From the NCBI GenBank assembly GCA_024103275.1, contig JAGFIV010000123.1, forward strand, positions 1 to 45,812: a stretch of 45,812 nt of DNA. The letters are read 5' to 3'. This stretch comes from Flavobacteriales bacterium. GTDB lineage: Bacteria > Bacteroidota > Bacteroidia > Flavobacteriales_F > PHOS-HE28. Both the position numbers and the translations under genes were made by a program. Below, piece by piece: positions 1-4,586 of the stretch (the first letter of the stretch is position 1; every line of letters starts with the position of its first letter). Under the pieces are notes generated by a model. That model saw nothing but the letters and a program-made list of their open reading frames with translations. It was not told the DNA's origin and made no database searches.

Positions 1-145
1 ATCTCAGCCGACAGCCGCACGGCGGCAGCAACGCGCTGTGAAACCGCACCCCGCGCCGCCACGACGAGACCCCCGGACCTTGGGGATCTGCACGGCCACA
101 TCACCGACTCCAGTCTGTACTGTGCGCTCACGCAAACGATCAATA
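1..145 (-). mobile_element. IS256-family transposase fragment (remnant, cut by window edge)
   Basis: Read on the minus strand, this stretch encodes RERTVQTGVGDVAVQIPKVR. It matches the conserved N-terminal block of IS256-type transposases (HGYLPERE-TGIGPV-V--P-VRDR). The next block expected in the family, VRFHSALLPP, is present but in another frame, so at least one frameshift lies near positions 60-75. No start codon or N-terminal region is recognisable upstream; the sequence runs directly out of a RAYT tail. The rest of the gene would lie left of the window. Seen: the motif and the frame change. Known: the family motif. Inferred: a decayed insertion sequence. Confidence 0.6.
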
Positions 146-164
146 GGGTCGGACTCGATTGATT
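139..164. repeat. Imperfect palindrome at the RAYT tail
   Basis: ATCAAT at 139-144 pairs with ATTGAT at 159-164, and the inner GGGTC pairs with GACTC (one G-T wobble) around a single-base loop, with one mismatch on the way. The right half belongs to the 17-nt sequence GGACTCGATTGATTTTG, which is also present, without the left arm, at 793-809. It may be the terminal hairpin that a RAYT or IS200-like enzyme recognises. Confidence 0.45.
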
Positions 165-274
165 TTGAGGTGGTGCCGATCGTTATCCGATTTGCGGTCA
201 TCCGCGCGGGGCTTCGGCGCAACACGTCGCTGTAATTGGCCCTCAATCCGGCGCTTGAATCGCTCATCGCCAAT
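151..274 (-). pseudogene. RAYT (REP-associated tyrosine transposase) C-terminal remnant, copy A
   Basis: The minus strand encodes GDERFKRRIEGQLQRRV followed by APKPRADDRKS and a tail ending KINRVRPY-stop at about 142-144. This is the pattern of the C-terminal end of Y1/RAYT transposases (LGxExFxxxIExxLGRRVxPxPRGxxRKS). Nothing of the catalytic HUH domain is present. The region upstream (275-390) shows no transposase similarity and no other gene. Copy A and copy B (793-985) share both ends but differ in the middle, so they are diverged relatives rather than a recent duplication. Confidence 0.6.
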
Positions 275-390
275 GCAGTTGCCTCAGTCGGGTCCGGCTG
301 CGGCGGTAGAATGCTTCGTCCTCTTGTGCGACGGTGGTGACAAACCAAGACCAGACTCTCTCACCTGCATTTCGATCTGAGCACAATCTG

Positions 391-765
391 TCAGTTCAAT
401 AGACAAAGGAACCAAAATATCCCGATTAGCGCTATCATAAAGCGAACGCTATAGCTCACATGATTGCTGTTATGATCGGGTAATTTTAGAAAGTGTGAAC
501 CGGGGTAGTGTTCTCCTATATGCTGGCCAAGTTTGACGATGTAGCTATTAATTTGTATTTCAAACAGAAAAAACGTAACAGACGAAATTATTCCCAATAT
601 TTTTGGCGCATTTTTTTGCCACGCCAATGCGGCATCAATGTTTTTCCCAAAAACCGCGAAAAACAAACCTGCCGTGATGGTTGCATAAAGAGTAAGCAAA
701 GCAAATCGAATGTTCCCATAATGACGGATACTCGCTAACGTCTGTGAGTACTCCTCAGGTCCCAA
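391..765 (-). CDS. Small three-helix membrane protein, AT-rich, unknown function
   Basis: A 124-residue protein with three hydrophobic segments (about residues 21-40, 57-77 and 106-123), so probably an inner-membrane protein. I do not recognise the family. The start is TTG at 765, preceded by GGAG six nt upstream; an in-frame TAA lies two codons before the start, so it cannot be longer without a different start. The gene is visibly much richer in A and T than everything to its right and is flanked by two RAYT tails, which points to horizontal transfer. Its reading frame is intact and the residue pattern (hydrophobic helices with charged loops) looks like a real protein rather than a chance ORF. 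Confidence 0.55.
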   Translation of the reverse strand: MGPEEYSQTLASIRHYGNIRFALLTLYATITAGLFFAVFGKNIDAALAWQKNAPKILGIISSVTFFLFEIQINSYIVKLGQHIGEHYPGSHFLKLPDHNSNHVSYSVRFMIALIGIFWFLCLLN

Positions 766-792
766 TGCTTACTCCAAATATTCCAAGGGGCT

Positions 793-985
793 GGACTCGA
801 TTGATTTTGGCGTGGCGCCGACTTGCGGACAACTCCCGGCGCCCTCCACGTAGCCTGACACCGTGATTGGCTCTCGATACGGTGTTTGAATCGTTCATCG
901 GCCAATAAAACAGGTTTTATCGGCGTATTTCAATCAGGGCCTGATGCGCAAGATGAGTGCTGAACAGGTTCCGGTAGGGCACTTG
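793..985 (-). pseudogene. RAYT C-terminal remnant, copy B
   Basis: On the minus strand YRNLFSTHLAHQALIEIRR (about 976-920) is followed, after a stop and a frame change, by LADERFKHRIESQ (about 904-866) and by the 17-nt tail GGACTCGATTGATTTTG shared with copy A. YRxLFxxxLxxxxLxEIR followed by LGxExFxxxIE is the order of the last two conserved blocks of RAYT transposases. The fragment has at least two disabling changes and no catalytic domain. Together with the terminator it accounts for the gene-free stretch 766-1072. Confidence 0.6.
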
Positions 986-1030
986 GCGTGCTTCGCTCGT
1001 CTTGCACAGCCATACGCAGGCGGCCTGTGG

Positions 1031-1065
1031 CGGGCGTTTGCCGTCCTGGGAACGGCAAACGCCCG
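1031..1065 (-). terminator. Strong hairpin just downstream of rhlE
   Basis: A perfect 14-bp stem (CGGGCGTTTGCCGT with its complement) around a 7-nt loop, starting 7 nt after the rhlE stop codon. There is no T tract on the minus strand, so it may act as a 3'-end stabiliser or a weak terminator. Confidence 0.6.
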
Positions 1066-3917: not shown

Positions 3918-4586
3918 ATGCGCAGCGCGGAGATCGCCCACCTGTTGAAGCTGGAATGGCAGCTGGACCGCCGCCAGAAGCATGCCTGGGGCAGCATGGC
4001 GCTGTACGTGGTGAGCACCATCTATGTATGCTACCAGGGGGTGCACAACATCGTGGAGGTGCCGACCTGGAACGCGTTGTTCTGGATCATCCTGCTGTTC
4101 GCGGCCTTCAACGCCTTGGCGCGGTCCTTCCAGCGGGAGAGCGCCGGGCGGCAACTCTACCTGTACACCTTGGCCTCGCCGCGCAGCGTGGTGCTGGCCC
4201 GTACCCTGTACAACGGATTGACCATGGCGGTGCTGAGCCTGCTCAGCTTGGCCGCGTACGCCCTCTTCATCGGCAGCCAGCCCATGGAGGAAGCGCGCCT
4301 GGACATCTTCCTGGCCGTGGTGGTGATCGGCGGCATGGGCTTCGCCTTCCTGCTCACCTTGGTCTCCGCCTTGGCCGCACGCGCCGGCAACGGCATCGGC
4401 CTGATGGCCATCCTGGGGTTCCCCATCGTGCTGCCCATGCTGCTGAGCCTGATGCGCGCCAGCAAGTCCGCCCTGGACGGCATGGGCTGGAATGTCACCG
4501 GGAAGTACGTGCTGTGGCTGCTGCTGATCGACCTGATCACCGTTGCCCTGGCCTGGCTGCTCTTCCCCTACCTTTGGCGCGACTGA
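3918..4586 (+). CDS. ccmB: Haem exporter membrane subunit CcmB
   Basis: A 222-residue inner-membrane protein with about six hydrophobic helices. It is the permease partner of the ABC ATPase CcmA in system I cytochrome c maturation. Seen: an N-terminal cytoplasmic stretch LLKLEWQLDRRQKHAW, then ALYVVSTIYVCY, the conserved region ALARSFQRESAGRQLYLY and the mid-protein block LASPRSVVLARTLYN. ATG 3918 is chosen because it gives the usual short CcmB N-terminus; the reading frame is open for 64 further codons upstream. Its stop overlaps the next start (TGATG), so translation is probably coupled. No ccmA is present in the window, so the ATPase must be encoded elsewhere. Confidence 0.88.
   Translation: MRSAEIAHLLKLEWQLDRRQKHAWGSMALYVVSTIYVCYQGVHNIVEVPTWNALFWIILLFAAFNALARSFQRESAGRQLYLYTLASPRSVVLARTLYNGLTMAVLSLLSLAAYALFIGSQPMEEARLDIFLAVVVIGGMGFAFLLTLVSALAARAGNGIGLMAILGFPIVLPMLLSLMRASKSALDGMGWNVTGKYVLWLLLIDLITVALAWLLFPYLWRD

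Follow-up and report, generated by a model that had tools for sequence, protein, structure and literature searches.

An apparently foreign membrane-protein gene between TIRYT-type transposase remnants at the end of a Flavobacteriales contig

Introduction

RAYT-like genes with terminal inverted repeats on both sides, often with the motif GGGGWSAS, have been named TIRYTs, and the unit a TIRtron (PMC3733652, PMC6006769). The two transposase remnants described below are assigned to the TIRYT/TIRtron family on sequence likeness: they share transposase homology, a GGGGTCAG-type terminal repeat that overlaps the gene at its 3' end, and the occurrence of this repeat as short MITE-like units in other genomes. 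They differ in that the analysed DNA holds only decayed C-terminal ends with one repeat each and without the catalytic region. An intact relative of the remnants (locus L068) also matches Pfam Y1_Tnp and scores 85.6 bits (cut-off 80) against the NCBIfam model of the REP-associated tyrosine transposase (NF047646); the elements differ from the latter in being flanked, as far as seen, by terminal inverted repeats and not by GTAG REP sequences. Two further families are represented. The first is IS256, the nearest members seen being Vibrio IS256 or ISVa19-like transposases, about 60-65% identical over residues 60-96, although the copy found here is short, frameshifted and devoid of the catalytic domain and of the ends. 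The second is a small membrane-protein family found at three other loci (L176, L179 and L180), which share with the protein studied here an N-terminal motif, the helix layout and 26-65% identity, but occur in chromosomal settings without this transposase.

The window, i.e. the whole stretch of 45,812 nucleotides that was analysed, is an entire contig (C67) of an assembly of 137 contigs and 3.58 Mb, window base 1 being contig base 1, which precludes an extension to the left. The contig encodes type IX secretion proteins (CHU_C and SprB domains, and Por_Secre_tail below the cut-off), which point to Bacteroidota. The segment of interest, from position 1 to about 1030, is the extreme end of this contig. 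All coding features discussed in the region 1-2545 lie on the minus strand: an rhlE-type DEAD-box helicase gene, the right remnant, the membrane-protein gene, the left remnant and the IS256 fragment. The helicase gene (1073-2545) has a match in all 39 genomes of the genus, the own genome counted. Directly downstream of it, a perfect 13-bp hairpin (1032-1064, minus strand) was read from the sequence, which is likely the first native sequence beyond the segment. The hairpin has a 7-base loop and no T run.

Transposase remnants and the IS256 fragment

The initial annotation had placed two C-terminal RAYT remnants of like orientation on the two sides of the membrane-protein gene, and this is borne out by self-comparison of the window as well as by DNA and protein profiles. 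Positions 133-274 and 775-906 are 66% identical in the same orientation. A DNA profile of seven elements matches 146-273 (E 1e-11) and 794-1008 (E 2e-10), and a protein profile of nine relatives (242 residues) covers the left remnant with residues 201-242 and the right one with residues 166-209 and 200-233 in two frames. The left remnant (152-283, minus strand) comprises the last 42 or so codons of a RAYT/TIRYT-type transposase, while the right remnant (794-1029, minus strand; profile envelope 787-1029) contains a frameshift and a stop. The right remnant had been recognised correctly but ended too early, at 985, since the match reaches about 1008-1029, near the rhlE hairpin. The view that both remnants are cut at one codon, and represent a recurring short form, was dropped, as the wider profile extends the right remnant by about 100 bases.

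Homology to the Y1 (IS200-like) RAYT-type transposases is present in the C-terminal part of the protein only. Neither remnant retains the region of the HUH motif and the catalytic tyrosine (the profile is matched from residues 166 and 201 of 242 onwards), the GGGGWSAS motif has decayed to AGGGTCGG and GGGGCTGG, and each remnant retains one terminal repeat, not two. Both are relics of the family and no longer functional members. The terminal repeat of the left element, GATCAATAGGGTCGGACTCGATTGATTTT, occupies 138-166 (plus strand), and that of the right element, with a decayed outer arm, 780-808 (plus strand); both edges were set by eye, the left one against copies in other genomes. The core common to the two repeats is GGYYRGACTCGATTGATTTT, at 147-166 and 789-808. 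Hairpin folding has been retained in the left repeat (z -2.0) and lost in the right one, and the repeat of the intact relative in L068 folds with a z of -5.3.

The fragment of an IS256-type gene that had been noticed beside the left remnant is real. The feature (20-135, minus strand) was delimited by a pairwise match and by plasmid tblastn, and corresponds to residues 60 to about 96 of a 412-residue IS256 transposase of a Vibrio plasmid: positions 135-34 encode residues 60-91 and positions 52-20 residues 86-96, in two different frames. The longer piece matches at E 7e-10 in the pairwise comparison, and plasmid tblastn gave matches down to E 6e-5. A 45-residue peptide of this fragment had no match in NCBIfam, and in a search of the segment 1-1030 as DNA against plasmids the fragment was the sole match, to one Vibrio plasmid. 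The catalytic DDE domain and the terminal inverted repeats of IS256 are absent, the contig ending beyond residue 96. Some three bases separate the end of the fragment from the terminal repeat of the left element. The simplest reading, although an inferred one, is that the left element inserted into the IS256 gene. No second IS256 gene was found in the own genome by a search that also missed this short fragment, so that the result speaks to long copies.

The membrane-protein gene

Between the remnants, and separated from the left one by a spacer (274-390) with a GC content of 0.56, lies an intact gene of 124 codons (391-765, minus strand), recognised from its reading frame and from homology. 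As had been noted before, it possesses its own TTG start with a candidate Shine-Dalgarno sequence, GGAG, read six bases upstream (772-775, minus strand), and a base composition unlike its surroundings: its GC content is 0.405 compared to about 0.64 in the rest of the contig, and none of 1777 other 375-nt windows is as AT-rich. The length of the frame is weak evidence for a gene, because frames of at least 124 codons occur in 44 of 2000 simulated sequences. Homology, at E 4.8e-15, indicates that 391-765 is a real gene. Its product is a small membrane protein, accessory in nature and with about three hydrophobic helices, from a sparse family that no Pfam or NCBIfam model covers. Hydrophobic stretches lie near residues 19-41, 54-77 and 102-124, and a structure model built from the single sequence has three helices (pLDDT 70, pTM 0.38), although its quality did not warrant a fold search. 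Searches of Pfam, PADLOC and PHROGs with the product were negative, and a weak NCBIfam match (E 0.12) to a 909-residue model was set aside. No match of the gene was found in plasmids, phages, genome contigs, viral contigs or solved structures, and Rfam gave none either. A promoter search returned nothing better than chance, which was counted against the reading of the segment as an acquired island.

The strongest homologue is an intact protein of 152 residues (G551; E 4.8e-15), the one match among 369 genomes in the class of a genome titled Sulfuricella. The phylum of that genome (398 genomes) yielded two more: G911, whose copy of 58 residues is broken after about 45 codons, with 65% identity across the N-terminal part in common, and G1211, with a homologue of 129 residues. 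Both reappeared in the order of G911 (390 genomes), together with three weak matches with internal stops, which were set aside, whereas the order of G551 (6 genomes) held no homologue besides G551 itself. Sub-threshold Pfam matches of the homologues were likewise set aside. The N-terminal motif EYxxxLASxRHYxNxR[FY]A is present in three of the four sequences. By our reading the second ATG of the G911 copy falls on the TTG of the window gene, which supports the latter as the start. Judging from reading frames, the G551 copy has a PmbA-like protease gene on one side and a YjgA-like gene on the other. In G911 the broken homologue adjoins a beta-lactamase-like gene (named by eye) flanked by 58-nt direct repeats that are 76% identical (L181:3245-3302 and 4349-4406).

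It may be asked whether this Bacteroidota lineage is the original home of the gene, the flanking elements alone being foreign. The gene is intact while both of its flanks have decayed, and two weak matches were obtained in other genomes of the class Bacteroidia (E 3e-4 and 6e-4); these are, however, partial, with 24-31% identity and in one case three stops, and were set aside. The strongest homologues came from the proteobacterial searches. Moreover, the GC content at the three codon positions is 0.44/0.35/0.42 in the gene (third position 0.424) compared to 0.68/0.45/0.84 in rhlE (third position 0.837). Close homologues in the same place in all relatives, which would have spoken for a native gene, were not encountered: the protein is absent from all 57 other relatives. 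A native origin is thus considered very improbable.

Terminal repeats in public genomes

Public genomes were scanned with the exact pattern of the core GGYYRGACTCGATTGATTTT, which occurs in at least 117 stretches, compared to about four chance matches expected in a collection of that size by our own estimate. By title, nearly all of the 80 loci listed belong to gamma-, beta- or zeta-Proteobacteria; the exceptions are a single MAG titled Thaumarchaeota and two contigs titled Electrothrix, and none of the 80 titles names Bacteroidota. The core was not found in viral contigs, and a text search of a literature collection for four exact repeat strings retrieved no paper. Many of the listed loci carry the core as the terminal repeat of an element of about 0.8 kb, whose RAYT-type protein has the C-terminus GGDRKS...KINRV, and intact relatives have an inward-facing repeat at both ends. 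In the own genome, no further copy was found (the other four matches had E > 1), and the RAYT-type loci of that genome lack the repeat. Its Y1-transposase genes lie in L003, L004 and L005 (contigs C107, C63 and C77); in L003 a RAEGPR-type unit is repeated in a long array upstream of the gene, and runs like GRGVPS/ATLGRG recur within the frame in L005.

The initial annotation had taken the gene for passenger DNA, and it could accordingly be proposed that RAYT/TIRYT repeats bracket genes and move them, either in single-stranded form or as a unit bounded by terminal inverted repeats. The position of the gene between two like-oriented element ends suits this proposal, as does the folding of the repeat into a hairpin in L068 and in the left window copy; the right copy, however, no longer folds. 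Adjacent repeat pairs were counted in the 80 loci and the window, a non-random sample, as the loci were picked by the exact pattern; pairs closer than 60 bp were set aside, since the repeat is nearly palindromic and may thus be paired with its own reverse-strand match. All ten inward-facing pairs of 250-2500 bp contain RAYT sequence (eight with more than 150 profile residues, two with a part), and shorter inward pairs are empty and MITE-like. In the 80 loci, no inward pair of 250-2500 bp encloses a non-RAYT gene. Outward pairs of 250-1200 bp number five and direct pairs of at least 250 bp ten, the latter including the window, whose repeats are like-oriented and not inward-facing.

Direct pairs do enclose small genes elsewhere, the proteins being named by reading. 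In L081 (2395-3531), a VapBC-like pair has a single terminal repeat on one side and, on the other, a deleted TIRYT-type element that has kept both repeats and 51 C-terminal residues. In L106 (3293-5364; a Thiotrichaceae MAG by title), two toxin-antitoxin-like pairs lie between like-oriented repeats, but the first two of these repeats begin MITE-like units of about 120 bp that stand beside the genes. Six repeats and no close pairs were found in 715,807 bp sampled from three repeat-bearing genomes; at such a low density close pairs look clustered, although six repeats are too small a number for judging the cassette idea, and such repeats are described as occurring in 'dimers or clusters' (PMC3733652). 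The homologues of the gene also bear on carriage. If the gene were regularly moved by RAYT ends, it should be found beside them in other genomes, yet none of the three homologous loci (10-15 kb each) contains a terminal repeat or a RAYT match, and the gene is absent from all 50 searched genomes bearing the repeat. The claim of passenger DNA is therefore upheld as regards foreign origin, for which absence from the genus, composition and proteobacterial kin speak, and not as regards carriage by RAYT ends, which we regard as highly unlikely. The broader notion that like-oriented, hairpin-forming TIRYT repeats are ends for single-strand mobilisation, with small genes and toxin-antitoxin pairs as cassettes, here across phyla, is given very little credence, and the locus probably does not represent a novel type of mobile cassette. 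In our reading, the arrangement would represent two independent insertions, whose like orientation is a one-in-two coincidence.

Origin of the segment

As DNA, positions 1-990 are absent from all 38 other genomes of the genus, the best match having E 0.003 over 24 bases, and neither the terminal repeat nor a RAYT match occurs at any of 29 rhlE-type loci in the genus. The segment 1-1030 has a GC content of 0.518, below that of all 425 other windows, and its 4-mer divergence, 0.284, is twice the maximum among 85 windows (0.141). Owing to this absence and extreme composition, the segment is considered foreign to this contig. The same island was not found in another genome among those searched, which was counted against the reading as an island.

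Given its location at the very end of one of the 137 contigs of the assembly, the segment may not belong to this genome. In such an assembly chimera, 1 to about 1030 would be DNA of a proteobacterium from the same sample, which a weak overlap had linked to the Bacteroidota contig end. This explanation would account for the location exactly at the contig end, for the composition break near 1000-1030, for the 38 other genomes of the genus without anything similar, and for the lack of an IS256 gene and of a further terminal repeat elsewhere in the genome, although with regard to IS256 this lack covers long copies only. Its weak point is that a join would be expected more often in intact or repeated sequence, and here the sequence is a decayed single-copy remnant. 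The chimera is a serious possibility, if not a probable one. Because the junction sits in decayed, single-copy sequence, transfer is modestly favoured over misassembly, and it is somewhat probable that positions 1 to about 1030 are debris of proteobacterial-type mobile elements, horizontally acquired and decaying beside rhlE in a Bacteroidota genome.

If the segment was acquired by transfer, the following course of events may be envisaged. The left element would have inserted into or beside an IS256 copy, and the right one, which ends some five bases ahead of the ribosome site of the membrane-protein gene, just upstream of that gene; both insertions may predate or postdate the transfer. Deletions would have removed the N-terminal portions of the two transposases. 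The gene has probably been separated from its original promoter, and its transcription may depend solely on read-through from rhlE. It would be stranded DNA and not the cargo of a working element.

Neither outcome alters the understanding of how RAYT-type elements work. If the segment is chimeric, this end of the contig should be trimmed. If the junction is real, the locus would represent proteobacterial RAYT-type debris in a Bacteroidota genome, and would add a small membrane-protein family for which Pfam and NCBIfam hold no model.
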